A stretch of 64,000 bases of DNA, taken from contig NZ_GG694006.1 of assembly GCF_000160695.1 (NCBI RefSeq), forward strand, positions 608,932 through 672,931, read 5' to 3'. The DNA comes from Centipeda flueggei ATCC 43531 (GTDB taxonomy: Bacteria; Bacillota; Negativicutes; Selenomonadales; Selenomonadaceae). Below are positions 33,393 to 63,798 of this stretch, one piece after another. The notes beneath the pieces are model-generated. The model ran no database searches. It had not been told where the DNA came from and saw only the letters and a program-made list of their open reading frames with translations. Each line of letters begins with the position of its first letter. The stretch's first letter is position 1. The position numbers and the translations under genes are program-made.

Positions 33393-35012
33393 TCAGAGCT
33401 GAGGGCCCGCGGCAACAAGCGCGTCTGCGTCCTCGTTGCCTGCATACTTGTCAAAGTTCTTGATAAAGCGTGCGGCGAGATCCTTTGCCTTCTCCTCCCA
33501 CTCCACGCGACTTGCGTAGGTGTCACGCGGATCGAGAATCTTCGGATCGACCCCCGGCAGCTCCGTCGGGATCTCAAAGTCAAAGTACGGGATCTTCTTC
33601 GTCGGTGCGCTGTCGATCGCACCGCTCTGGATCGCGTGGATGATGCCGCGCGTATCCTGGATGGAAATACGCTTGCCCGTACCGTTCCAGCCTGTATTGA
33701 CGAGATAGGCGCGCGAGCCATGTGCCTGCATCTTGCGGACGAGCTCATGTGCATACTTCGCCGGATGGAGTTCGAGAAAAGCCTGACCGAAGCATGCAGA
33801 GAACGTCGGCGTCGGCTCGGTGATGCCGCGCTCCGTACCTGCAAGTTTCGAGGTGAAGCCCGAGAGGAAGTAATACTTCGTCTGCTCCGGCGTCAGAATC
33901 GAGACCGGCGGCAGGACGCCAAACGCGTCGGCAGAAAGGAAGATCACGTGCTTTGCATGAGGACCCGCCGACTTCTTCGCGACTTTGCCCAGAACGATAT
34001 GCTCAATGTGATTGATCGGATAGGAGACACGCGTATTCTCGGTCACAGTCTTATCCGCAAAGTCCACATGTCCGGCGAGATCAACCGTCACATTCTCAAG
34101 AAGAGCGTTGCGGCGGATGGCGTTGTAGATGTCCGGCTCTGCCTTGGGATCAAGGTTGATGACTTTTGCATAGCAGCCGCCCTCATAGTTGAAGATTCCC
34201 TCATCATCCCAGCCATGCTCATCATCGCCAATCAGCAGACACTCGGGATCCGTCGAGAGCGTCGTCTTGCCTGTACCGGAGAGGCCGAAGAACAGTGTCG
34301 TGTTCTCCCCCTTCATATCCGTATTCGCCGAGCAATGCATGGAAGCGATGCCCTTCAGCGGGAGGTAGTAGTTCATCATCGAGAACATACCCTTTTTCAT
34401 CTCGCCGCCATACCACGTATTGACAATGATCTGCTCACGGCTAGTGAGATTGAACATGACCGCCGTCTCGGAGTTCAGTCCAAGATCGCCAAAGTGCATG
34501 ACACGCGCCTTTGCCGCATTGTAAACCACAAAGTCGGGTTTGAAGTGCTCCAACTCCTCCTCTGTCGGACGGATGAACATATTCGTGACGAAATGTGCCT
34601 GCCACGGCACCTCGACAATAAAGCGAACCGCCATGCGCGTATTCTCGTTGGCACCACAGAACGCATCGACAACGAAAAGGCGCTTGTTGCAGAGTTCGCG
34701 GATGGCAATTTCACGAACAGAGTTCCACGCTTTCTGCGAGGCGCGATGGTTGTCGTTCTTGTAGGCGTCGGATGTCCACCACACTGTATCGTGCGATGTC
34801 TCGTCATCCACGATGTATTTGTCCTTCGGCGAACGTCCCGTGTAGATGCCCGTCATGACGTTGACGGCATCCTTCATATTCGTGACCTGTCCGCGCTCAT
34901 AGCCCTCGAGATCAGGGCGCAGTTCCTCGCGGAACAGCTGATCGTAGTCTGGATTGTGGACAATCTCCGTCGTCCCCGTGATACCATATTGTGTCAGATC
35001 AATTGTTGCCAT
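33393..35012 (-). CDS. pckA: Phosphoenolpyruvate carboxykinase (ATP)
   Basis: Interconverts oxaloacetate and phosphoenolpyruvate, 539 residues. The ATP loop [14 protein letters not shown] and the [13 protein letters not shown] segment are clear. In succinate- and propionate-forming Negativicutes this enzyme may also run in the carboxylating direction; that is an inference. The ATG at 35012 has GAGG 5 nt before; the frame extends further upstream without support. It is monocistronic with its own terminator. Confidence 0.97.
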
Positions 35013-35146
35013 AGTTACCTCTTCCTTCCAAAAGATCGGCGTCATGGATGCGGGATGAGTGATTTTTTCTCTCATCTCACACTCTGTCACAATTCTACAT
35101 AAATACGAAAAACCCTCTTTTATTGTGAAAAAATTCCGCGATTCAA

Positions 35147-35305
35147 GGAATCGCTGATAAAACAGTCCCTTGGATTGGTGCAGATTTTTTGTCCTGTCAA
35201 AAAGACAAACCGGACGCATAGCCAAAGCTATGTGGAGGATTCTAGGGCACAGACAGGGCGAAAAAGATATACTAAGACGGCGGTGCTGAGTTTATCAGTG
35301 CTTCC
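35147..35305 (-). repeat. Fold-back repeat element, copy A
   Basis: A non-coding 159-bp element with inverted ends GGAATCGCTGATAAA and (reverse complement of the right end) GGAAGCACTGATAAA. It is flanked by a 4-bp duplication TCAA (35143-35146 and 35306-35309). The orientation is opposite to copies B and C. The right-hand TCAA contains the complement of the thrC stop codon, so the element begins immediately after thrC. A central hairpin CATAGC-CAAA-GCTATG is present. The rest of the pckA-thrC gap (35013-35142) is AT-rich and I see no confident promoter in it. Confidence 0.85.
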
Positions 35306-36790
35306 TCAAACGCTACGTGCAAAGTCCAGCACGGCGTCGCGCATCCCGTCCTTTTCACAGACCTCCTTGTGACGGACAGGTGCTGTACGAAGTGCGGCAA
35401 GACGCGTTGGGATCGGCATGCCGCTGTGCTTTTGCAGGCGTTCCATCAGCGTGAACTCATCCAGCCCGTCCGTATCCTTGCCCAGTGCCTGAAGCACACT
35501 CGCGCCGAATTTGTACGGACTTGCCGTCGAAAGAACGATCATCGGTCGCATGTCCCCCGTCTCGCATCGATAGTCTTCCGCCACACGATAGGCAACCGCC
35601 GTATGCGTGTCGAGGGTATAGCTTGTCCGCTCGCAGACGATACGGATTTCCTCCTCCGTCATCATATCGCTTGTGAATGCCGCCCAGAAATTCTCACGGA
35701 GGACGGGCAGGAGACCGCTCGCGTCATAGGTTCCGTTCTCTGCAAGTTCCCTCATCCACGCAGCAACCTGTGCCGTGTCCTCCGTCAGATGATAGAGCAG
35801 ACGCTCAAGATTGCTCGAAACGAGGATGTCCATGGACGGTGACATCGTCTGATAGAAGGGACGGCGGCGATCATAGATGCCGCGGCGCAGAAAATCCGTG
35901 AGCACGTTGTTCTCGTTTGATGCACAGACGAGTTTGCCCACGGGCAGCCCCATGCGTTTTGCATAGTAGCCCGCGAGGATATTGCCGAAGTTCCCCGTCG
36001 GCACGGTGAAGTTCACAGCGTCGCCTGCCTGAATCTTCTGCGCCGCAAGGAGATCGGCGTAAGCGCTGAAATAGTAGACAATCTGCGGGACAAGGCGCCC
36101 CCAGTTGATGGAGTTCGCTGAGGAGAGCTTGGTATGGGCGGCGGCGAGCTCCGCTGCCATCGCCGCATCACCGAAGATCTCCTTCACGCCGCGCTGTGCA
36201 TCGTCAAAGTTGCCGCGCACGGCCACGACGCGGACATTTTCTCCCGCCTGCGTCACCATCTGGAGTCCCTGGATGGGGCTGACGCCGCCGTCGGGGTAAA
36301 ATACCATGATGCGGATTCCCTCGGCATCGGCGAAACCTTCGAGTGCCGCCTTGCCCGTATCGCCCGAGGTGGCGACAAGGATGAGAATCGTGTCCTTCTC
36401 TCCCTGTTTCACGCGTGCTGTGCTCATCAGCTGCGGGAGAAGCTGGAGTGCCATGTCCTTAAAGGCGCTCGTCGGACCGTGCCAGAGTTCGAGCACCTCG
36501 AGCTCACCGACCGACGTCACGGGGGCACGGCGTACGTCGTCAAACGTATGACTGTAGGCGCGGCGCACGCAGCCCTCGATTTCCTCCTCCGTATAATCCG
36601 TCAAAAAAAGGCGCAGGATGCGTACGGCACGCTCCTCGTATGAGAGCCCCGCCAGTTCCTCGATGGCGGAAAGCGGCATCTGCGGAAATGACGCAGGCAC
36701 AAACAGCCCGCCGTCCGAGGCAAGCCCCTTGAGAATCGCTGCAGCAGAGGAAACACGCTCCGCGCCTCCGCGCGTGCTGAAGTAATCCAT
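35306..36790 (-). CDS. thrC: Threonine synthase
   Basis: A PLP enzyme of 494 residues that turns O-phosphohomoserine into threonine. The PLP lysine lies in TSAFKDMALQ, and the phosphate-binding loop is near VPTGNFGNILAGYYAKRMG. The N-terminal domain of the long type (YFSTRGG) is present. The ATG at 36790 has AAAGGA 8 nt before and is preferred over the ATG at 36799. Its stop codon coincides with the duplicated target site of repeat copy A. Confidence 0.95.
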   Translation of the reverse strand: MDYFSTRGGAERVSSAAAILKGLASDGGLFVPASFPQMPLSAIEELAGLSYEERAVRILRLFLTDYTEEEIEGCVRRAYSHTFDDVRRAPVTSVGELEVLELWHGPTSAFKDMALQLLPQLMSTARVKQGEKDTILILVATSGDTGKAALEGFADAEGIRIMVFYPDGGVSPIQGLQMVTQAGENVRVVAVRGNFDDAQRGVKEIFGDAAMAAELAAAHTKLSSANSINWGRLVPQIVYYFSAYADLLAAQKIQAGDAVNFTVPTGNFGNILAGYYAKRMGLPVGKLVCASNENNVLTDFLRRGIYDRRRPFYQTMSPSMDILVSSNLERLLYHLTEDTAQVAAWMRELAENGTYDASGLLPVLRENFWAAFTSDMMTEEEIRIVCERTSYTLDTHTAVAYRVAEDYRCETGDMRPMIVLSTASPYKFGASVLQALGKDTDGLDEFTLMERLQKHSGMPIPTRLAALRTAPVRHKEVCEKDGMRDAVLDFARSV

Positions 36791-36868
36791 TGTATACATC
36801 CTTTCATTTGGGCATTGCCCTGCATCTGTGCTATACTATGATTCGTGTTTTGGGCGATGTTGTCGTGC

Positions 36869-37354
36869 TTAGCGTGCGAGATGTGCCGTCTGTGCCTCGG
36901 CCGCACGAATGAGATCGGCGGGCGGGAGCGAGAGCTGCTCGCCGCGCCGCCCCGCGCTCACACAAATGCGCTCCTGCTGCATCATGCTTTCGTCGCAGTA
37001 GACGGGATAGCTTTTCTTCGCGCCGAGCGGGGAACACCCGCCGCGCACGTAGCCTGTGAGGTCAAAAACCTCCTTCAGATGCACCATCTCCGCACGCTTG
37101 TTTCCGCTTGCGGCGGCGGCAGCCTTCAGGTCAAGCTCCCCCGTACCCGGGATGACCGCCATAAACACGCCCGTGCGGTCGCCGCGCACCACGAGCGTCT
37201 TATAGATGCGCTCAGGCGGGATGCCCGTCACCTCTGCCACATGCGCCGCCGAAAGATCGCTCTCATCGACGGGATAGGTCAGAAGCTCGTAGGAAATGCC
37301 AAGGCGATCCAAGATACGTGCCGCATTGGTCTTTGGAATTTTCTTCTTTGCCAT
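36869..37354 (-). CDS. ybaK: YbaK/EbsC-type Cys-tRNA(Pro)/aminoacyl-tRNA deacylase
   Basis: A small trans-editing protein of 161 residues that removes mis-charged amino acids from tRNA. It shows KTNAARILDRLGI at the N-terminus, YKTLVVRGD with the conserved Lys, and GYVRGGCSPLGAKK, the YbaK active-site loop. The start at ATG 37354 has GGAG 11 nt upstream. It lies between thrC and the divergent nadE. Confidence 0.9.
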   Translation of the reverse strand: MAKKKIPKTNAARILDRLGISYELLTYPVDESDLSAAHVAEVTGIPPERIYKTLVVRGDRTGVFMAVIPGTGELDLKAAAAASGNKRAEMVHLKEVFDLTGYVRGGCSPLGAKKSYPVYCDESMMQQERICVSAGRRGEQLSLPPADLIRAAEAQTAHLAR

Positions 37355-37398
37355 ATTACTCACCACTCCGGATTATACCATTGAGCCGGAATAAAAAT

Positions 37399-37416
37399 CA
37401 AACGCTATCGCGTTTG
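37399..37416 (+). promoter_or_regulatory. Palindrome directly upstream of the nadE ribosome site
   Basis: CAAACGC-TATC-GCGTTTG is a perfect 7-bp inverted repeat ending just before AAGGGAG. It could be an operator or an RNA hairpin limiting ribosome access. Confidence 0.4.
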
Positions 37417-37431
37417 GAAGGGAGCATCACT

Positions 37432-39099
37432 ATGAAAATTGCACTCATCTCCATGGAAGTCGTCCCCGGTCGTCCCGATCGGAACGCTGCAACAATGCGC
37501 GGAAAGATTGCAGAGGCAAAGGCGGCGGGTGCCGACCTCGCCCTTTTCCCCGCACTCAGTCTCTCGGGGCTCTTCCTCGGCGGCGGGTGGAAACAGCCCG
37601 CATTCCTGGGCGACTGCGCGACATACGCCGAGGAGATTGCCGCTGCGGCAGATGGGATCACCGTCATGTTCGGCAACGTCGCCGCAGGCGGGGAGGGCTG
37701 CTGCGGACTCGCGCGCACTCTCCTGCACGCGCGCGGCGGCGTCCTGCGCGAGGTCGCACGTCGTCCGCTCCATGGTGCGAGTACGCGTTTCTCACCACTG
37801 CTCTACGAGCTGCCGGGAGAACGTGTGATCCTCGCTGCCGACGCCAGTCCCTTCCCGCTCTGCTTTGAGGCGCGCACCCTCGCCAAGACGGCGCAGGAAC
37901 AGAACGCCGTGCTCCTCTATGTCAACGCGCTTGGCATTCAGGACAAGGGCAAGACCGTCTACACCTTTGCGGGCAGTGCACAGGCATTCCGCGCGGACGG
38001 TGCGCGCGCCCTCATCACGCCCGCCTATAAGGACGGCATAACCATCGTCGACACGGCGGCACTCCCTGCCCCTCCCAACAAACCCGCAGAACCTGCCATC
38101 GCACCCATCTATCGCACACTCCGCTACGCCGTGCAAAAATTCCTTGCACGCATCCATATGGAACGCGTTGTCATCGGCATCTCGGGCGGCATCGACTCTG
38201 CCGTCGCCGCCGCTCTCTACGTCGACGCGATCGGCGCGGAGAACGTTCTGCTCGTCAATATGCCGAGCCGTTTCAACTCTGCAACAACGAAGGGGCTTGC
38301 GGCACAGCTTGCGGACAATCTTGGCAGCCGCCACATGATCGTCCCCATCGAGGAGAGCGTCTCGTACACAGCAAAGCAGCTCAGCGAGATCCCCATCGAG
38401 GGGGCAGCTGCGGCTCCCGGTGAGCATCTGACAATCTCCTCCTTCGTCCGTGAGAATATGCAGGCACGCAACCGCAGCGGCCGCGTCCTCGCGACAATTG
38501 CCGCCGCATGGGGTGCCGGCTTTACCTGCAACGGGAACAAGGCAGAGACCACCGTCGGCTATGCGACTCTCTACGGCGACCTCGCAGGCTTTCTCTGTGC
38601 GCTCGCCGATCTTTGGAAATATCAGGTCTATGACCTTGCGCGCTACCTGAACGAACATGTCTACGGGCGCGAGGCCATCCCGCAGGGCATCATCGACATC
38701 GTGCCGAGTGCCGAACTCTCCGACGCGCAAAATGTCGACGAGGGCAAGGGCGATCCCATCCGCTATCCGTATCACGATCATCTCTTCCGCGCCTTTGCGG
38801 AAAACAATGAAACGCCTGAGGAAATTCTGGAATACTATGCCAAAAACGCGCTCGAAGCACATATCGGCTGTAAGAAAGGGCTTGTCGCAGACTATTTCCC
38901 GACGGCGGCAGACTTTATCGCCGATCTCGAACGCTGGTGGGGGCTCTATACGGGCATGGCAGTCGCCAAGCGCATCCAGTCACCGCCGCTGCTGTCCGTC
39001 AGCGGTCGTGCCTACGGCAGCGACCATCCAGAATCACAGATCGGCGCGTACGAGACGATTCGTTATCGCGCACTCAAAGAGAAGCTGCTCGGAAAATAA
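37432..39099 (+). CDS. nadE: NAD+ synthase with degenerate amidase domain
   Basis: Makes NAD from deamido-NAD and ATP, 555 residues. The C-terminal synthetase part (about 230-555) is intact: VIGISGGIDSAVAA is the pyrophosphatase loop, and TCNGNKAETTVGY and PSAELSDAQNVDEG follow. The first ~240 residues keep the fold of a nitrilase-type glutamine amidase, but the catalytic Glu position is Ala41 (FPALSLSG), and neither the Lys nor the Cys motif (ICEDIW-like) is recognisable (ILAADA instead). It is therefore probably ammonia-dependent. The ATG at 37432 has AGGGAG upstream. Confidence 0.93.
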   Translation: MKIALISMEVVPGRPDRNAATMRGKIAEAKAAGADLALFPALSLSGLFLGGGWKQPAFLGDCATYAEEIAAAADGITVMFGNVAAGGEGCCGLARTLLHARGGVLREVARRPLHGASTRFSPLLYELPGERVILAADASPFPLCFEARTLAKTAQEQNAVLLYVNALGIQDKGKTVYTFAGSAQAFRADGARALITPAYKDGITIVDTAALPAPPNKPAEPAIAPIYRTLRYAVQKFLARIHMERVVIGISGGIDSAVAAALYVDAIGAENVLLVNMPSRFNSATTKGLAAQLADNLGSRHMIVPIEESVSYTAKQLSEIPIEGAAAAPGEHLTISSFVRENMQARNRSGRVLATIAAAWGAGFTCNGNKAETTVGYATLYGDLAGFLCALADLWKYQVYDLARYLNEHVYGREAIPQGIIDIVPSAELSDAQNVDEGKGDPIRYPYHDHLFRAFAENNETPEEILEYYAKNALEAHIGCKKGLVADYFPTAADFIADLERWWGLYTGMAVAKRIQSPPLLSVSGRAYGSDHPESQIGAYETIRYRALKEKLLGK

Positions 39100-39117
39100 T
39101 TTGGAAAACACATATTG

Positions 39118-39149
39118 GCGTCCCTGTGTATTCGTGCAGGGACGCTTTT
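39118..39149 (+). terminator. Terminator after nadE
   Basis: The 9-bp stem GCGTCCCTG / CAGGGACGC with a 10-nt loop is followed by TTTTC. Confidence 0.8.
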
Positions 39150-39170
39150 CATTTATAAAAATATCATCAT

Positions 39171-39185
39171 TGAGAAATTTTCTCA
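39171..39185 (+). promoter_or_regulatory. Fur-family-like operator (7-1-7 palindrome)
   Basis: TGAGAAA-T-TTTCTCA is a perfect 7-1-7 inverted repeat, the architecture of Fur/Zur/PerR boxes. It lies against a candidate -35 (TTTACA, 39186-39191); the paired -10 (TATTCT, 39209-39214) overlaps a half-site ATTCTCAA. Confidence 0.6.
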
Positions 39186-39214
39186 TTTACAAGATTCAAT
39201 TTTTGTGCTATTCT
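39186..39214 (+). promoter_or_regulatory. Promoter of the metal transporter operon
   Basis: TTTACA and TATTCT are 17 nt apart, 28 nt before the lipoprotein start. Confidence 0.55.
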
Positions 39215-39241
39215 CAATACAAATGAAAGGATGGTGCTGTC

Positions 39242-40192
39242 ATGCACGCAAAAAAATTTTCCCTGCATCTCTTACTCACCCTTGCTCTTGCCCTTACGGC
39301 ACTGATCGCCGTCGGCTGCGGCGGAGGAGGCACAGGCGGCGACAAGGCAGCCGACACGAAGAAAACCGTAACGGTCACGACCTCATTTTTACAGGATATG
39401 ACAAAGCAGCTCGCGGGCGATTATGTGAACATCGAACTGATTATCCCCGCAGGCGAGGATCCGCATCTCTACGTCGCACAGCCGGCCGACCTTGAGAAGA
39501 TCAAGAAGGCAGATCTCCTCCTCTACCACGGCCTGCACTTCGAGGGCAAGATGGCAGAGGTGCTTGAGAAGAAGGGCATCGCCGTGACAAAGAACTTCGC
39601 GGATGCAAACATCAACTACATGGAGGAGGACGGCAAGAAGATTGTCGATCCGCATTTCTGGTTTGATGTCGCACTCTACAAGCAGGCAACGGAGGAGGCG
39701 GCAGCGCAGCTCATCAAGCTGCTCCCCACGCATGAAAAGGAGATTCAGGAGAATCTGAAGAAGTATCTTGCAGACCTCGACGCGCTCGATGCCGAGATCA
39801 CACAGAAGATCGCACAGATTCCCGAGGGGCAGCGCAATCTCGTCACGCCGCACGATGCGTTCAACTACTTCTCCCACCGCTACCACGTGAATGTCATCGC
39901 GCCGCAGGGGGTCAGCACGGACTCCGAGGTTGCGAATGCCGACATCGAGAAGACGGCAAACTACATTGTCGAGCACAAGGTCAAGGCGGTATTCGCCGAG
40001 AGTACGACGAACCCAGAGCGCATGAAGAAGCTGCAGGAGGTCTGCAGGACGAAGGGCTTCGATGTCGAGATTGTTGGCGGTGAGGGCAATGAGCTCTTCT
40101 CGGATTCTCTTGCACCCGAGGGCCAGAAGGGCGATACCTATATCACGATGTACCGCAGCAACATCGATCTGATTGTTTCACATTTGAAGTAG
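39242..40192 (+). CDS. Metal-binding lipoprotein of an ABC transporter (TroA/ZnuA family)
   Basis: A periplasm-facing substrate-binding protein of 316 residues. The signal peptide ends in the lipobox AVGC (Cys26), so it is lipid-anchored. Predicted metal ligands are His75 (DPHLY), His138 (DPHFWF), His204 (TPHDAFNYF) and Asp288 (LFSDSL), the 3 His + 1 Asp set of TroA-type zinc/manganese binders. A Fur-like palindrome lies in the promoter. The genes for the ATPase and two permeases follow, after a 247-nt gap that holds a large fold-back repeat. Confidence 0.93.
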   Translation: MHAKKFSLHLLLTLALALTALIAVGCGGGGTGGDKAADTKKTVTVTTSFLQDMTKQLAGDYVNIELIIPAGEDPHLYVAQPADLEKIKKADLLLYHGLHFEGKMAEVLEKKGIAVTKNFADANINYMEEDGKKIVDPHFWFDVALYKQATEEAAAQLIKLLPTHEKEIQENLKKYLADLDALDAEITQKIAQIPEGQRNLVTPHDAFNYFSHRYHVNVIAPQGVSTDSEVANADIEKTANYIVEHKVKAVFAESTTNPERMKKLQEVCRTKGFDVEIVGGEGNELFSDSLAPEGQKGDTYITMYRSNIDLIVSHLK

Positions 40193-40238
40193 CAGAAAAA
40201 TGTTCGCTGTCAGATGTTATGAACAAACGGAAACGTAA

Positions 40239-40411
40239 CCATACGACACTCCTAAGCAAACCCTAGTGGAGCAAGCGGAAGCGAGTGTGCGACCCGCCCC
40301 CTGCGGATTTCTTTCGTTCAAGCGCAGCGCGTTTAAGAAGTCCGCAGGTATTTAGGCGGACGAGCACACGACCGCTTGCGTAACGAGGCGTTTGCGTGGA
40401 GTTCGTACGGA
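40239..40411. repeat. Long imperfect fold-back sequence in the metal transporter operon
   Basis: Two arms of about 60-80 bp face each other. Matched blocks from outside in are CATACGA / TCGTACG, ACTCC / GGAGT, GCAAAC / GTTTGC, GCAAGCGG / CCGCTTGC, GTGTGC / GCACAC, CCGCC / GGCGG and CCTGCGGA / TCCGCAGG. Ends and internal sequence differ from the 160-bp family, and I see no target duplication or coding frame. In the transcript it would form a long hairpin between the lipoprotein and ATPase genes. Confidence 0.7.
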
Positions 40412-40439
40412 TAAAGAAACCATACAGAAGAGGCGCAGA

Positions 40440-41162
40440 ATGGAAGGAACGAACAGCGTGATCCACGTCGAAGACCTTACAATGGCATACCGTGAGACGC
40501 CCGTGCTCTGGGACATCGACCTCGATGTGCCGGAGTGCGTACGCTGTGCGATCGTAGGGCCGAACGGCGCGGGCAAATCCACCCTGCTGAAGGGGATCCT
40601 CGGGCTGCTGAAGCCCGTCTCAGGTGCAGTGCTCCTCTGGGGCAAGGCACTCTCCGCCGTGCACAAGCAGATCGCCTATGTGCCGCAGCGCGGCTCGGTG
40701 CACTGGGACTTCCCAACGACGGTCTTCGATGTTGTGCTCATGGGACGCTATGCCCATCTGGGGCTCGTTCACCGCCCCGGCAAGGAGGATCGCGCGCTTG
40801 CGATGGAGGCACTCGACAAGATGAAGATGGCAGACTTCGCCGACCGTCAAATTTCTGAACTCTCTGGCGGACAGAAGCAGCGGGTCTTCATCGCACGCGC
40901 ACTCGCGCAGGACGCGCAGCTCTACATCATGGACGAGCCGCTTGCGGGTGTTGACGAGACAACGGAACGCATCATCATGGAGAAGTTTATGGATTTACAG
41001 AAGGAAAAGCGCACCGTCATCGCCGTCCACCACGATCTCAGCACACTCGATGCCTATTTCGACTATCTCGTCGTACTGAACCGCACGGTAAAGGCATCGG
41101 ACTATCTCGCAGATATCGACAAGGAGGCGGCACTCGCGCGCGCCTACCGCGTGAAGGAGTGA
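40440..41162 (+). CDS. Metal ABC transporter ATPase
   Basis: A cytosolic ATPase of 240 residues that drives zinc/manganese/iron import. Walker A GPNGAGKST, the Q-loop region YVPQRG, signature LSGGQKQRV, Walker B LYIMDEP and the switch His in AVHHDL are intact. The start ATG at 40440 follows GAGG by 6 nt. The first permease gene starts 3 nt after its stop. Confidence 0.94.
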   Translation: MEGTNSVIHVEDLTMAYRETPVLWDIDLDVPECVRCAIVGPNGAGKSTLLKGILGLLKPVSGAVLLWGKALSAVHKQIAYVPQRGSVHWDFPTTVFDVVLMGRYAHLGLVHRPGKEDRALAMEALDKMKMADFADRQISELSGGQKQRVFIARALAQDAQLYIMDEPLAGVDETTERIIMEKFMDLQKEKRTVIAVHHDLSTLDAYFDYLVVLNRTVKASDYLADIDKEAALARAYRVKE

Positions 41163-41165
41163 GCG

Positions 41166-42041
41166 ATGGACATTCTGACGAACTACACCTTTCAGATCGT
41201 CGCGCTCGGCAGCGTCATCCTCGCCGTCGCCGCCGCTCCCGTCGGCGCACTCAGCGTCTACAAGGGACAGAGCCTCATCGGCGATGCAATCGGGCACTCG
41301 ACCTTTCCCGGCATCATCCTTGCCTACATGGCGTTCGCGACGCGCAGCCCCGTCATCCTCCTCGCGGGAGCAATTCTGGCAGGTGCGGCAAGCTACGCGC
41401 TCATTCAGCTCGCGCACAGGGACAAGCGTCTGGGGCTCGATGCAAATCTTGCAATCTTCCTCTCGGGCTTCTTCGGGCTTGGTATGGCGCTCAAGAGTTT
41501 TATCCAAGGAAATCCTGACTACGCGGGCGCGTCACAGGCGGGGCTCGGGACGTACATCTTCGGACAGGCGGCGTACATGCTTGAGGCGGATGTCCTGCTG
41601 ATCGCCGTCGTTTCTGCCCTCGTGCTCACGCTCCTGCTGCTCTTTTACAAGGAGCTGAAGCTCTTCGTCTTTGACGCGGAGTATGCGGAGGTGGTCGGAC
41701 TGCCCTGCCGTTTACTGAACCTCCTCCTGCTCGTCATGACGATTGCCGTCATCGGCATCGGGATCAAGGCGGTCGGCGCAATCCTCATCAGTTCCTTCCT
41801 CATCATTCCCTGCGTTGCGGCAAATCAGTGGTCGAACAACTTTGTACGCGTGCTCCTGCTGAGCAGTCTCATCGGTGCGGTCTCCGCGCTCGTCGGAACG
41901 TACATCAGCACGCTCGAACAGGGCATGTCGACGGGGCCCTCCATCATCCTCGTTGCCTCGCTGATCGCCTTTTTTTCCATTGTTTTCGGGACAAAGGGCA
42001 TCCTCGGCAGCGTGTTGAAACGGAGGCACTCACATGGATGA
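41166..42041 (+). CDS. Metal ABC transporter permease (ABC-3 family)
   Basis: An inner-membrane permease of 291 residues with about eight hydrophobic segments. The family motif GDAIGHSTFPGIILAY and GIKAVGAILISSFLIIPCVAA are clear. It overlaps the next permease gene by 8 nt, so the two are translationally coupled and likely form a heterodimer. Confidence 0.92.
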   Translation: MDILTNYTFQIVALGSVILAVAAAPVGALSVYKGQSLIGDAIGHSTFPGIILAYMAFATRSPVILLAGAILAGAASYALIQLAHRDKRLGLDANLAIFLSGFFGLGMALKSFIQGNPDYAGASQAGLGTYIFGQAAYMLEADVLLIAVVSALVLTLLLLFYKELKLFVFDAEYAEVVGLPCRLLNLLLLVMTIAVIGIGIKAVGAILISSFLIIPCVAANQWSNNFVRVLLLSSLIGAVSALVGTYISTLEQGMSTGPSIILVASLIAFFSIVFGTKGILGSVLKRRHSHG

Positions 42042-43134
42042 CGCACTGCTCGTACTCCTGCTGACGGCGGCAGCGTGCGCACCGCTCGGCGTATTCCTCA
42101 TCCTGCGCCGTCTCTCCATGATGGCGGACGCAATCAGTCACACCGTTCTGCTCGGCATCGTGCTCGCTTTCTTCGTAACGCATGACCTCGGCTCGCCGTG
42201 GCTGCTCTTCGGGGCGGCACTTATGGGCGTTGTCACGGTGTCTCTCGTCGAGCTGCTCGGCAAGACACGCCTTGTCAAATACGACGATGCAATCGGTGTC
42301 ATCTTTCCCCTGCTCTTTGCACTCGCCGTCATCCTCATCAGTAAATATGCGGGGAATGCCCACCTCGATACCGATATGGTACTCATGGGCGAAGTCATCT
42401 ACGCTGGGCTGAACACGGTCGAGATCGGCGGCGTGGAGATTCCTGCAGCGGCGCTCAAGATGGGCGGGCTCGCCCTCCTGATTGCAGTGTTTATCACCGT
42501 GTTCTACAAGGAGCTCAAGGTCTCCACATTTGACGGCGAATACGCACGGCTCATCGGCGTACCGACGGGCATCCTCTTCTACGCCTTTATGTCTCTGACC
42601 TCACTGACCACGGTCGCAGCATTCGATGCGGTCGGTGCGATTCTCGTCATCTCGTTTTTCATCGCCCCCGGTGCGGCGGCTCTGCTCTTTACAAAGCATC
42701 TGTCGCACACGCTCCTCCTCGCCCTCCTCGTCAGCATGGCGAACTCCGCGCTCGGCTACGCGCTTGCCGTGCATATGAACGCCTCGATTGCAGGACTCTG
42801 CGCGGTCATAAATATGCTTGTCTACCTGCTTGCCCTGCTCATGGGGCCGAAAGGGGCAGTCACGACTTACATCCGCCGCAAAAGAAGTATGCAGCAGATG
42901 CAGCGCGACCTCTTCCTGCTCCACATCGGCAGACACACGGCAGAACGCGTTGAGAGTGCAGAAAACCACGCGAACGAGATTGGCGACCATCTGAAATGGG
43001 ATGCGTCGAAGGTGCGCCGCGTCAGCCGCGAGCTGATCGATCAGCACCTCCTCCATCGCGCGGGCAGCTACTATCTGCTGACCGATACGGGGGCGGCGGC
43101 GTACAAGGCGCTCTGCGAGCGATATTTCATCTAA
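42034..43134 (+). CDS. Metal ABC permease with C-terminal winged-helix-like tail
   Basis: The second ABC-3 permease, 366 residues. The first ~285 residues match a full permease (ADAISHTVLLGIVLAF; AVGAILVISFFIAPGAAA). About 75 extra residues follow, starting RRKRSMQQMQRDLFLLHIG and ending LLTDTGAAAYKAL. They look like a winged helix: a helix pair (NEIGDHLKWDASKVRRVSREL), then a wing (LLHRAGSYYLLTDTG), as in DtxR/MntR N-terminal domains. The tail could sense cytosolic metal or bind DNA or protein; this is an inference. Its TAA stop abuts repeat copy B. Confidence 0.88.
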   Translation: MDDALLVLLLTAAACAPLGVFLILRRLSMMADAISHTVLLGIVLAFFVTHDLGSPWLLFGAALMGVVTVSLVELLGKTRLVKYDDAIGVIFPLLFALAVILISKYAGNAHLDTDMVLMGEVIYAGLNTVEIGGVEIPAAALKMGGLALLIAVFITVFYKELKVSTFDGEYARLIGVPTGILFYAFMSLTSLTTVAAFDAVGAILVISFFIAPGAAALLFTKHLSHTLLLALLVSMANSALGYALAVHMNASIAGLCAVINMLVYLLALLMGPKGAVTTYIRRKRSMQQMQRDLFLLHIGRHTAERVESAENHANEIGDHLKWDASKVRRVSRELIDQHLLHRAGSYYLLTDTGAAAYKALCERYFI

Positions 43135-43294
43135 GGAATCACTGATAAATTCAGCACCATCATCTTGACGCATCTTTTTTGCCCGTACTTCGGCGGAAAA
43201 TCCTCCACAGAGCACCACTCTGCGTCCGGTTTTCCACCTTGTTCGGACGAAAAATCTACGCCAATCTGACGGGCTTCATTTTATCAGTGATTCC
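43135..43294 (+). repeat. Fold-back repeat element, copy B
   Basis: A 160-bp non-coding element with perfect 15-bp inverted ends GGAATCACTGATAAA and a 4-bp duplication CTAA on both sides (43131-43134, 43295-43298). The left CTAA includes the TAA stop of the permease gene. The central hairpin is CAGAG-CACCA-CTCTG, differing from copies A and C on both sides of the stem. The 445-nt gap to purL holds this copy, a terminator and copy D. Confidence 0.88.
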
Positions 43295-43345
43295 CTAAGA
43301 CAATGCCGCCGATATGACGAACCGCCGAAGACCATCCATACGCAA

Positions 43346-43375
43346 AAAGCGCAGGAAATCGCTTTCCTGCGCTTT
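43346..43375. terminator. Bidirectional terminator between the metal operon and purL
   Basis: The 13-bp stem AAAGCGCAGGAAA / TTTCCTGCGCTTT has a 4-nt loop. It lies between convergent genes and between repeat copies B and D. The T-runs are only three bases long. Confidence 0.7.
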
Positions 43376-43393
43376 CTAGTCCAACGGATAAAA

Positions 43394-43549
43394 GGAAACA
43401 CGGATATCCACCCAGCACTGGCATCTTAGTACATCTCTTTGCCCGCACTTCGGCGGAAATCTAGTGCAGAGCATCACTCCGCATTCGGTTTTCCTCCCTG
43501 TCGGACGAAACATTTACACCAATCTGAAGGACTGTTTTATCCGTACTCC
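43394..43549 (+). repeat. Fold-back repeat element, diverged copy D
   Basis: The interior follows copy B closely (AGCAC..CATCTTA..CTTTGCCCG..TTCGGCGGAAAT..TCGGACGAAA..CCAATCTGA). The ends have drifted to GGAAACACGGATA and, from the right, GGAGTACGGATAA. No target duplication is evident. The CGGATA end variant is shared with copy E. Confidence 0.75.
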
Positions 43550-43579
43550 CTAAAACGAGGGAGGAATGTTTTTCGTCTT

Positions 43580-46500
43580 TTACCGTATAAAATATCCCAC
43601 GCCCGATTCAAAGATCATCTGATTCATCTCACCGGGTACATTCATGCCAATATTGGGTCCAATGCGCTCGGCATGCGCCATGCGCCCGTAGATGCGGCCG
43701 TCGGGACTCGTAATGCCCTCGATGGCGTTGACAGAGCCATTCGGATTGTACGGCTGATCGAGCGTTGGATCGCCCTTCTCGTTCACGTACTGTGTGGCGA
43801 TCTGACCACGGACACGCAGTGCTGCCACCGTATGTCCATCCGCATAGAAGCGCCCCTCTCCATGGGACACCGCCAATGTATGCGTATCACCGACATTGAC
43901 CCCCGAGAGCCACGGTGAAAGATTCGACGCAACGCGCACGCGCACGGTCTGTGAGACATGCCGCCCAATATTGTTGTACGTCAGAGTCGGCGTATTCTCG
44001 TCGAGATCCGTAATTTTTCCGTAGGGCAGCAGTCCGAGTTTCAGGAGTGCCTGGAAGCCGTTGCATATCCCAAGGATCAGGCCGTCGTGATCATGCAGAA
44101 GGCGATGCACTGCCTCGGCAATCTGCGGGGCACGGAACATCGCTGCGATGAATTTGCCCGTGCCGTCGGGCTCATCGCCGCCGCTGAAACCGCCCGGCAG
44201 CATGAGAATCTGTGCGTGCTTGATCGCCTCAGCCATCGCCGCTACCGTCTCCTCGACCGCCTGTGGAGTGAGATTCCGCACGACCAGGATCTCAGGCTTT
44301 GCACCGACACGCTCCCACGCGCGTGCCGAGTCATACTCGCAGTTCGTCCCCGGAAATACGGGGATGCAGACACGCGGTTTTGCGATTTTGAAAGAACTTG
44401 CCACATGCTTTCCCTTCGTATAGGGAGCGTATGTCGGGCGATCGATCTGCCGCATGGAGTGCGGTACCGTCGTCGGGAAAATCTTCTCAAGCGGCTCGGT
44501 ATACGCCGTCTTCACATCGGCGAGCACAATGGTATCAAGATCTGTGATGATGCTCGGCACATCACGTGTGACACCGATCTCAACTGCGCCCGTTCCCGCA
44601 AGATTTTCTGCCAGATGAAACGAGGATGCTACCTCGAGCAGAATCGTTCCATAAAGAGGCTTAAAGAGATCATCCTGCGGGATGAATGACGTAAAGCGGA
44701 AGCCCAAGTTATTCCCTAAACACATCTTTGACAGTGCTGCTGCAATACCGCCGCGCCCGACGCTCTGCGCCGAGAATACTTTCTGGGCTGCAATCAGATG
44801 GTGTACCTTTTCAAAGTTCTTGCGCAGTTGCTCAAAAACAGGCAGATCCTGTGCATCGTGTGCAACCGGGATCATAATAACACGATTGCCGGGGTACTTG
44901 AACTCGGGTGAGAGCACCTGATCCGCATGAACCGTCGCCACGGCGAATGCAACGAGTGTTGGAGGAACATTCAGCTGCTCAAATGTACCGGACATCGAAT
45001 CCTTGCCGCCAATGGCAGGAATTCCCAGTTCATGCTGAACACGCAGTGCACCGAGAAGTGCGGCAAACGGCTTGCCCCACTTCTTGGGATCCGTGCCAAG
45101 ACGCTCGAAATACTCCTGCAGCGTCAGGCGCACTGTATCCGCCTTCCCCCCTGCGGCGACAATCTTTGCCACTGCCTCGACAACGGCATAGACAGCACCG
45201 TGAAAGGGACTCCACGTAGAAAGATCGGGGTCAAAGCCGAACGCCATCGCCGATGCCGTATTCGTTGTGCCATGGCGCACGGGAATCTTTGCCACCATCG
45301 CCTCCGAAGGGGTCAGCTGGTACTTTCCGCCGAACGGCATGAGGACAGATGCCGCTCCCACTGTTGCATCAAACCGCTCCCCCAGCCCCTTTTGACTGCA
45401 TATATTCAGATCCCGCAGATTTGCGAGCCACATGGACTCAAGTGCGCGTCCTGCCTTGCGCACGAGCTGCGGAACACACTGCATATACGGTGTTTTCTCA
45501 TTGGGTGACTCGACAATGACACGCACATGCTGACGCACTCCGTTTGTTGCGAGGAAGCTGCGGGCAATCCGTACAATCTCTTTGCCGCGCCACCGCATGA
45601 CCAAACATGGATCCTCTGTCACCACAGCGACACGTGTCGCCTCCAGATTTTCTGCATCCGCATAATTCAAAAAAGCAGGGACATCCTTGGGAGCCAGCAC
45701 GACCGCCATACGTTCCTGGGACTCGGAGATCGCAAGTTCCGTACCATCCAGCCCCTCATACTTCTTCGGAACGGCATCAAGATCGATCGTCAGCCCATCC
45801 GCAAGCTCACCGATTGCCACGGCGACACCGCCTGCACCGAAGTCGTTGCAGCGCTTGATCAAACGACTGACCTCGGGATTGCGGAAAAGGCGCTGCAGCT
45901 TGCGTTCCGTCGGCGCATTGCCCTTCTGCACCTCCGCTCCCGAAGTCGTCAGCGACTGCTCTGTATGCTGCTTGGACGAACCAGTCGCACCGCCGATGCC
46001 GTCACGCCCCGTGCGCCCGCCGAGGAGGATGATGACATCGCCGGGCACAGGGCGCTCACGCACAACCTGTGCCGCAGGCACTGCGCCGATCACTGCGCCG
46101 ATCTCCATACGCTTTGCAAGATAGCCCTGATGGTAAATCTCACGCACTTGGCCCGTGGCAAGACCGATCTGGTTGCCGTAGGAACTGTATCCCTCCGCTG
46201 CGCCAAGTGTAATCTTCTTCTGCGGGAGCTTCCCTGGCAGCGTATCCTCGATTGGTGTACGCGGATCGGCGGCTCCAGTCACGCGCATCGCCTGATAGAC
46301 ATAGGAACGCCCTGAAAGCGGATCGCGGATTGCACCGCCCAGACAGGTCGCCGCACCGCCGAACGGCTCGATCTCCGTCGGATGGTTATGTGTTTCATTC
46401 TTGAACATGAGGAGCCAGTCCTCGTTCTTGCCATTGACATCCACCGTGATCCGTATGCTGCAGGCATTGATCTCCTCCGAGGCATCGAGATCGTCCAGTT

Positions 46501-60972: not shown

Positions 60973-60976
60973 TAAA

Positions 60977-61138
60977 GGAAGCACTGATAAATTCAGCACC
61001 GTCATCTTAGCGCATCTTTTTTGCCCGCTTTTTGTCGGCAAATCCTCCACATAGCTTTGGCTATGCGTCCGGTTTGCCTCCTCAATCGGACGAAAAAATC
61101 TACGCCAATCTGACGGACTTCATTTTATCAGCGATTCC
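60977..61138 (+). repeat. Fold-back repeat element, copy C
   Basis: A 162-bp non-coding element with ends GGAAGCACTGATAAA and, from the right, GGAATCGCTGATAAA. It is flanked by the 4-bp duplication TAAA (60973-60976, 61139-61142). The centre holds CATAGC-TTTG-GCTATG. The outer ~50 bp of both sides are complementary throughout, so the whole element can fold back. It separates the deoD promoter from the htpX terminator. Nothing else is seen in the 386-nt deoD-htpX gap apart from the listed sites. Confidence 0.88.
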
Positions 61139-61150
61139 TAAATGGAATGT

Positions 61151-62158: not shown

Positions 62159-62216
62159 GGAATCGCTGATAAAAGGATACGTCAACGCCGATCGTGCTGA
62201 ATTTATCCGTGCTTCC
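62159..62216 (+). repeat. Fold-back repeat element, internally deleted copy E
   Basis: A 58-bp relic with end GGAATCGCTGATAAAA on the left and, from the right, GGAAGCACGGATAAATTC. Most of the interior is lost. It lies one base from the serA stop codon (62218-62220), and I see no target duplication. Confidence 0.65.
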
Positions 62217-62217
62217 C

Positions 62218-63798
62218 TTAAATTGCCTCGAAATTGACCAGCTTCGCATCAAAGATGCCCTCGACAGCGAGCACGCGCGCGAGCACATCATCGGAGATGT
62301 CGTGATCGATGGTGAGTACCATGATGTTCATGCCCTTGCGATCGGACTTTCCCACCTGCATAGAGGAGATGTTGATGCCTGCCGCGCCCATGATCGAGCC
62401 AATCGTGCCGATGACACCGGGGCGGTTGATGTGCGGGCAGATGAGAATGCGTGCGTGCGGGTCAACGTCGACACGGAAGCGGTTGATGCGAACGATGCGC
62501 CCCTCCTCGCCGAAGAGCGCGCCCTGCACCTCGGAAGTGCCGCCCGATGCCGTCACGCGCACGGTGATGAGCGTCGAGTAGTGCGACGTCTCCTTCTCGC
62601 GAATCTCAGATACCTTGATGCCGCGCGACTTCGCCACACTCGGTGCGTTGACGTAGTTGATCTCGCTCTCGAGGATGGGGTTGAGCATCCCCTTGAGAAT
62701 GGCCGTCGTGAGGAAGCTCGTATTGACCTCAGTGATCTCGCCGTTGTAGACGACCTCGACCTGCGAGATGGGTCCCTCGGCGAGAGAGCACGCTGTACAC
62801 CCGAGCTGTTCGGCGAGCGCGATGTAGGGGCGGATCACACGCATGACTTCCTTTGAGACAGGCGCCATGTTGACCGCCGCGAGCACCGGCTCACCGCGCA
62901 GTGCGGCACAGATGCCCTTTGCCACGTCCACTGAGACGCCGATCTGTGCCTCCACCGTGGACGCGCCGAGGTGCGGCGTGAGGACGATGCCGGGCACGCT
63001 GCGCAGAGGGCTGTCCTCCGCGAGCGGCTCACTCTCAAACACGTCGATCGCCGCCCCCGCGACAATTCCCTCGCGCACGGCCTCGGCGAGATCGTGCTCG
63101 TTGATGATGCCGCCGCGCGCGCAGTTCACGAGGCGGACGCCCTGCTTCATCCGCCGCATCTGCGCCATGGAGATCATGCCGCGCGTCTCCTTCGTGAGCG
63201 GCATGTGCACCGTGATGAAGTCCGCCTGCTCGATGATGTCATCGAGCGTCCCGACGGTCACGCCGAGTGCCTTTGCCCGCTCCTCGTTGATGTAGGGATC
63301 ATAGGCGATCACATTCATGTCAAAGGCAAGGGCGCGCTTTGCGACGCCGCCGCCGATGCGCCCCATGCCGATGACACCGAGTGTCTTGCCGCGCAGCTCA
63401 ACGCCGACGTATGCCTTGCGGTTCCACTGCCCCGCGTGCATGGTCGCATCCGCTGTCGGGATGTTGCGCGCCATGGCAAGCATCATCGCAACTGTATGCT
63501 CCGTCGCGGCAATCGTATTGCCGCCCGGCGAGTTGATGACGATGATGCCGCGCTCCGTCGCCGCCTTTACGTCAATGTTGTCCACACCGACGCCGGCGCG
63601 CCCGATGATCTTCAGTTTCCCCGCGCGTTCCAGGACGTCCGCCGTTACCTTCGACGCCGAGCGTACCATCAGCGCGTCATAGTCTCCGATCACATCCAGC
63701 AGTTCCTCATGCGAGATCTTATCGCGCACATCGACCTCATAGTCCGTCAAAAGACCGATTCCCTCAGGTGAAATCCCATCCGCAGCCAAAATCTTCAT
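62218..63798 (-). CDS. serA: D-3-phosphoglycerate dehydrogenase, long form with ACT domain
   Basis: First enzyme of serine synthesis, 526 residues. The NAD loop GMGRIGGGVAKRAL, the catalytic Arg/Glu/His regions (NCARGGIINEHDL and LTPHLGAS) and GRAGVGVDNID are present. An intervening ASB-type domain and a C-terminal ACT domain (PGVIGTIGSIMGAAGINISSM) suggest serine feedback. The start ATG at 63798 follows GGGAGGG; an upstream frame extension has no support. Confidence 0.96.
   Translation of the reverse strand: MKILAADGISPEGIGLLTDYEVDVRDKISHEELLDVIGDYDALMVRSASKVTADVLERAGKLKIIGRAGVGVDNIDVKAATERGIIVINSPGGNTIAATEHTVAMMLAMARNIPTADATMHAGQWNRKAYVGVELRGKTLGVIGMGRIGGGVAKRALAFDMNVIAYDPYINEERAKALGVTVGTLDDIIEQADFITVHMPLTKETRGMISMAQMRRMKQGVRLVNCARGGIINEHDLAEAVREGIVAGAAIDVFESEPLAEDSPLRSVPGIVLTPHLGASTVEAQIGVSVDVAKGICAALRGEPVLAAVNMAPVSKEVMRVIRPYIALAEQLGCTACSLAEGPISQVEVVYNGEITEVNTSFLTTAILKGMLNPILESEINYVNAPSVAKSRGIKVSEIREKETSHYSTLITVRVTASGGTSEVQGALFGEEGRIVRINRFRVDVDPHARILICPHINRPGVIGTIGSIMGAAGINISSMQVGKSDRKGMNIMVLTIDHDISDDVLARVLAVEGIFDAKLVNFEAI

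Follow-up and report, generated by a model that had tools for sequence, protein, structure and literature searches.

A probable IS5-family miniature element that is over-represented at gene stop codons in Centipeda and Selenomonas

Why should copies of a short repeat end exactly at the stop codons of the genes beside them? The question is raised by a stretch of 64,000 nucleotides (nt) from Centipeda flueggei ATCC 43531 (contig NZ_GG694006.1, positions 608,932 to 672,931), called the window in what follows, in which two copies, A and B, of such a repeat adjoin a thrC-like and a metal-permease-like open reading frame (ORF). The original prediction for this locus, from which these gene names are taken, was that a target preference for NNAA favours stop codons, letting the element spread without killing genes and giving each host message a long 3' hairpin. 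Our analysis indicates that the repeat is very probably a non-autonomous miniature inverted-repeat transposable element (MITE) of the IS5 family, which duplicates four base pairs (bp) of approximately Py-T-A-Pu sequence, for which stop codons are tolerated targets, and which is found at stops more often than this target alone would give. The kind of mobile element is ordinary; it is the placement bias at stops, quantified here, that is unusual.

The copies in the window are listed in Table 1. Both A and B have exact target duplicates, TCAA and CTAA, that contain the stop codon whole (TGA of thrC and TAA of the permease), as had been predicted, and relic E does lie 1 nt from the end of the serA-like ORF. 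The flanks of relic E are GCAG and CTTA, that is, there is no target duplication. Copy C is not at a stop codon; 62 nt separate it from the 3' end of the neighbouring gene.

Table 1. Copies of the element, target duplicates and adjoining reading frames, in window coordinates.
Feature	Positions	Strand	Remark
Copy A	35147..35305	-	159 nt; the GGAAGCAC end adjoins thrC
Left target duplicate of copy A	35143..35146	none	4 bp, TCAA
Right target duplicate of copy A	35306..35309	none	4 bp, TCAA; contains thrC stop TGA (minus strand, 35308-35306)
thrC-like ORF	35306..36799	-	stop within copy A duplicate
Empty site TTAG	36869..36872	none	contains stop TAA of ORF 36869-37354 (-); a copy lies exactly here in genome G003
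Metal-permease-like ORF	42034..43134	+	stop within copy B duplicate
Left target duplicate of copy B	43131..43134	none	4 bp, CTAA; contains permease stop TAA (43132-43134)
Copy B	43135..43294	+	160 nt
Right target duplicate of copy B	43295..43298	none	4 bp, CTAA
Degenerate copy directly downstream of copy B	43394..43547	+	sequence-model match, E 1.3e-18 (G000 C8:652325-652478)
Copy C	60977..61138	+	162 nt; duplication TAAA at 60973-60976 and 61139-61142
Relic E	62159..62216	-	58-nt short form, both ends present
serA-like ORF	62218..63798	-	ends at 62218

The element is about 160 nt long, palindromic and non-coding, with terminal inverted repeats and the ends GGAAKCRCTGATAAA (GGAA...TTCC). Copies were sought in the window's own genome (G000; 2.16 Mb in 8 contigs) and in other genomes of the genus (labelled G002-G013 and so on; 14 in all). 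In G000 the end motif, with up to 2 mismatches, occurs at 119+100 places, versus 5+6 for a reversed control, and a sequence-only model gives 119 matches, antisense duplicates included (150 scored of 1,021 candidates); 64 two-ended copies, from sampled stretches of this genome, were used for scoring against stops. Size classes near 52-59 and 101-108 nt have the same ends, some with exact duplications, which suggests several deletion forms. With up to 1 mismatch the motif is present in 13 of the 14 genus genomes, G009 having no end motif at that threshold. At least 109 stretches with the element were found in a scan of named genomes, and all 80 of the 80 listed are from Selenomonas or Centipeda; the exact 18-nt end is present in 9 of 61 genomes of a family-wide sample (by genus, 6 of 30). 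A REP/RAYT palindrome (20-40 bp, with a GTAG or CGTC tag) is ruled out by the length of about 160 nt and the GGAA...TTCC ends, and a MITE of the ERIC/NEMIS type, with TA at its termini, by the GGAA ends and the four-base duplication. Rfam gave no match at the gathering score anywhere in the window; three sub-threshold matches in 34900-43700 were taken as chance.

A candidate for the protein that moves the element is found in other genomes of the genus. A PF05598 transposase is present in six of the 14 genus genomes, and at seven loci in these six the end motif (0-1 mismatch) stands on both sides of the PF05598 match, 1,235-1,251 bp apart, with flanks that are mostly YTAR; one of these loci (L135) contains a nested MITE. 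The two transposases tested (332 amino acids) match NCBIfam IS5_4 (NF033581) with E 5.7e-91 and 1.5e-87. The MITE and this IS5-family element of about 1,245 bp have only about 15-18 terminal nt in common, as judged by comparing their printed ends, and it is these shared ends that make its transposase the most likely mover of the MITE.

The target itself was read from the 64 two-ended copies of G000, whose pooled weights are T/C, T, A and A/G, or about Y-T-A-R; the recorded target of IS5 is Py-T-A-Pu (PMC5493358). The suggestion that the target favours stops is thus borne out to the extent that this short target often contains TAA or TAG, but the motif is not NNAA, which is rejected. An exact four-base duplicate is present at 80 of 140 full-length copies (up to one end mismatch, outside called genes, several genomes). 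Among the inexact duplicates the commonest mismatches are at the outer positions, C/T (25) and A/G (14), with both flanks still fitting YTAR; these could come from plain C-to-T decay or from exchange between copies. A duplication of TA only, which the outer mismatches might suggest, was set aside, given that TAAA, TGAA, TCAA, CTTG and TATA are each duplicated over all four bases. In the longer context the one signal is a weak A/T bias, two positions beyond the target.

How often are stops occupied across genomes? Stops were compared, with the element removed, with the same 4-mers elsewhere in intergenic DNA. The first set was G000, from which four alternative pairings (70 to 66 pairs), one of the overlapping C8:819992/820049 and the 44-nt pair C6:302568 were dropped. 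The second was G002, G003, G005 and G011 together, minus six G003 copies common to G000. The third was 109 named loci, a set biased to copies with an intact left end, from which 11 duplicates, 13 loci near a locus end and 15 in called genes were dropped, three loci being without a pair. At first 16 of 64 copies in G000 were counted at stops against 3.8 expected, and 28 of 119 in the first two sets pooled against 8.0 (ratio 4.6). Two of the 16 are mapping artefacts (relic E, and a 117-nt form with differing flanks), and the corrected count is 14 of 62 against 3.7 (P 1.1e-5). The four other genomes gave 12 of 55 against 3.4 expected (P 7.1e-5), so that the two sets pooled have 26 of 117 against 7.9 (P 2.7e-8), or 13 of 55 against 3.4 when only exact duplicates are kept. 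With the artefacts still in, the ratio is 2.9 against targets 2-60 nt past the stop (P 2e-4) and 3.0 against targets up to 100 nt upstream of a start (P 4e-5); there is also a mild surplus up to 60 nt upstream of starts (16 versus 8.5).

An earlier null with raw target weights (G000: 16 observed versus 7.6 within the same gap and 4.6 within 1.5 kb) was replaced by this stratified test, since raw weights ignore the abundance of each 4-mer, and one 9.9-fold ratio was left unused as it depends on a pseudocount. Copies within called genes number 8 of 68 in the stretches taken from the four genomes, where called genes make up 83-88% of the DNA, and 15 of 117 in the third set. Target sequence and gene avoidance explain about 30% of the stop matches in the first two sets and more than half in the third; under the cruder first null the share was about half. 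Target preference therefore contributes to the placement, as originally proposed, but accounts for only part of the stop matches. Beyond it, stops are still occupied about 2 to 5 times as often as identical intergenic 4-mers in all three sets. Over the three sets together, 38 of 219 copies (roughly one in six) are at stops. "Exactly at gene stops" is accordingly true of copies A and B, while most copies are elsewhere.

Such a placement could in principle arise if the insertions themselves had made the stops, by truncating or extending genes. One frame of the element's end does read TGATAA, and in two cases, C7:156044 (two-ended) and C6:302568 (a 44-nt partial pair), a called gene terminates 11 nt within the element. 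Against this, the TTAG site at window position 36869 is empty in G000 and filled in G003, with flanks 98.3% identical and the same stop both with and without the element; in the other direction, a G000 copy in CTAG (C8:554013) has its site empty in G003, and these two pairs, between species, are the polymorphic sites found. Orthologues of at least 60% identity, sought within sampled stretches for the stop-sited copies, end at the same codon in 31 of 43 occupied/empty pairs and within one codon in 39 of 43, although some of these pairs depend on each other, through sites common to G000 and G003, and one is the relic E mapping artefact; control pairs have the same codon in 1,923 of 2,265 (85%) and are within one in 2,066 of 2,265 (91%). 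The comparison of stop positions in element-free genomes, proposed with the original prediction, thus found them nearly always the same. As a general case, creation of the stops by insertion is rejected, and we regard it as highly improbable. The clear conclusion is that the stop is older than the element and that the element left the protein as it was. It is worth adding that TGATAA in the element end amounts to a built-in stop for insertions at gene tails.

Copies at the exact A, B and E sites are present only in G000 and G003 among the 14 genomes. In G008 a copy starts 11 nt past the thrC stop, at the end of its contig, and there are apparent end remnants past the thrC stop in G004 and further past the permease stop in G005 and G007. 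In the printed tails of the 12 genomes that lack copy B, the permease stop keeps the same column in 11, and G002 reads on. Compared with three empty orthologues, the thrC of G000 and G003 has one extra codon.

Several points weigh against a mobile IS5-type MITE with a real excess at stops. An exact duplicate is lacking at 60 of the 140 full-length copies, and is present at only one of the seven loci of the putative parent element (six without). G000 has no match to PF05598 (E <= 0.001) or NF033581 (E <= 1e-20), and the copies there may have been left stranded, or may depend on a mover that was not found; present mobility in this genome is uncertain, an autonomous partner in the same genome not being required of a MITE. 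The third set shows a weaker excess (12 of 102 versus 6.8 expected, ratio 1.9, P 0.037), which on 80 of the 109 loci is 8 of 75 versus 4.6 (P 0.087), and against targets 2-20 nt past the stop the ratio is 2.6 (P 0.009, artefacts still in). That the orthologue pairs noted above are partly interdependent belongs here too, as does the use of our own codon-usage script to call genes; in G000 it was run without removing the elements, and the counts of intragenic copies come from the other two sets. The gene caller, the two mapping artefacts among the 28 stop matches of the first two sets and the modest P value of the third set all speak for the excess being chance or a gene-calling artefact. However, it is highly significant in two separate sets, the third goes in the same direction, and most of the genes concerned are long and well scored; we therefore consider this explanation very unlikely.

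A simple mechanism would account for much of the pattern. The transposase would act at Py-T-A-Pu, a sequence that takes in TAA or TAG, and gene stops would therefore be common targets: a TAA or TAG stop that follows a pyrimidine would be a ready-made site. The duplication leaves the stop whole on the gene side, so that the reading frame is kept. Insertions within genes, rare among the copies, would mostly be lost by selection, and stop codons would remain among the best tolerated targets. The proposal that the element retains stops and mostly spares genes is in agreement with the intact stops in the duplicates and the few copies in called genes.

For the excess beyond the motif there are two readings, a preference at the time of insertion, or the loss, early on, of copies that land in promoters, leaders and terminators. 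Under the first, the transposase complex or a feature of gene ends, such as local melting, supercoiling or coupled transcription-translation, would steer insertion beyond the 4-bp sequence. The excess over identical 4-mers is what this would produce, and it is unchanged when stratified on local GC or on the A-2/T+2 flank bias (ratios 5.0 and 4.7). Best-class targets are occupied at 16 of 192 where the stop forms the last three bases (offset 0) and at 4 of 189 where it forms the first three, versus 9 of 612 at offsets 4-30 past the stop, 1 of 78 at -1 and 0 of 151 at -12 to -2. Among the youngest copies, those of full length with perfect ends and an exact duplicate, 13 of 72 are at stops, as are 23 of 122 of the rest, and this equal share speaks against slow selection; in addition, IS5 is reported to need DNA structure besides its target (PMC5493358). 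On the other hand, early purifying selection would produce an identical pattern, the share at stops is 11 of 35 for short or partial forms versus 25 of 159 for full-length copies (Fisher P 0.052), which would fit slow selection or sheltered decay, and the third set, with its bias to intact left ends, has the smallest excess. Targeting at insertion is thus a tentative reading. A little more speculative still is the proposal that for the IS5-type machinery of oral Selenomonas stops are safe harbours at insertion, through a codon-shaped 4-bp target combined with a local feature of translation stop.

The predicted long hairpin is present, and it covaries: in 27 aligned copies, 12 of 35 pairs have changed on both sides, with a covariation score of 0.211 versus 0.093 for shuffled and 0.010-0.050 for slid alignments. 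Copy B folds at -61.5 kcal/mol (z -8.2) and copy A at -44.1 kcal/mol (z -2.3). At the stop-sited copies the hairpin follows the stop and is probably part of the 3' untranslated RNA, where an effect is possible. Stop-sited copies might then have been retained as domesticated 3' elements whose hairpin stabilises or ends the message, and the strong covariation, the stability of copy B and the keeping of copies A, B and relic E in G003 are consistent with this. However, a role in transposition or as a cruciform explains the structure as well as a role in mRNA does, because many of the aligned copies lie away from stops and orientation relative to the gene shows no clear bias (left end adjacent in 9 of 15 in G000 and 7 of 14 in the others). 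Copy A folds much less well, and outside G000 and G003 the exact A, B and E sites carry no copy; a benefit from the hairpin is accordingly unlikely. In the palindrome arms, covariation is mostly through double Watson-Crick changes and G-U changes are few, a pattern that could come from copying between the arms of a DNA hairpin and not from selection on RNA. Past thrC, at window positions 35138-35154 on the minus strand, the end of copy A and its flank form a 7-bp stem with a T run behind it, and half of this terminator-like site is supplied by the insertion.

Among the literature matches listed, none was recognised as reporting a MITE from Selenomonas or an IS5-type element that targets stop codons, a query for Y-T-A-R giving mostly unrelated matches. 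RUP of Streptococcus pneumoniae belongs with another IS family and has other ends than the Selenomonas MITE. It is likewise a MITE, and an IS transposase is believed to move it in trans (PMC2229807). The nearest described element found is MITEPsy1 of Pseudomonas syringae (100 nt, six copies, two of them interrupting loci), which is thought to derive from the IS5-family ISPsy2 and has a 4-nt duplication at CTAG or YTAA (PMC3189936). It resembles the Selenomonas MITE in being small and non-coding, with one GGAA... end, IS5-family-like ends and a 4-nt duplication, whereas the latter is about 160 nt long, strongly palindromic and present in more than 60 copies. IS5 of Escherichia coli likewise duplicates 4 bp at Py-T-A-Pu, mostly CTAG and then CTAA/TTAG, but is autonomous, and the portion of its description available does not mention a bias to stop codons (PMC5493358). 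ERIC and YPAL of enterobacteria and NEMIS/Correia of Neisseria are also short intergenic repeats with hairpin RNA, with links to mRNA stability for ERIC and to RNase III processing for NEMIS (PMC2229807). They differ in the TA ends of ERIC and NEMIS and the 3-26 bp duplications of YPAL, the Selenomonas MITE having a 4-bp YTAR-type duplication and IS5-type ends, and being known from DNA alone. GTAG-tagged REP palindromes are near genes too, and the flanking ORF often takes its TAG stop from their terminus (PMC3733652); they are 20-40 bp long and the repeat brings the stop, whereas for the Selenomonas MITE the stop is already in the target.

The window has a second, seemingly unrelated repeat at about 40238-40415, in the metal-transport cluster, where it separates two ORFs. 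G011 has a similar sequence beyond its serA stop, with probable remnants in G013 and G008, and one G003 MITE is nested in another copy of it (flanks match at 82%).

For these organisms the findings mean that gene-end hairpins can be mobile repeats and not conserved terminators. A stop-like target motif offers a simple route to a harmless transposon. The excess beyond the motif is measurable, and selection can be separated from targeting by means of empty and filled sites between close species. If stops do prove to be safe harbours at insertion, the element would reach high copy number with little damage to its host.

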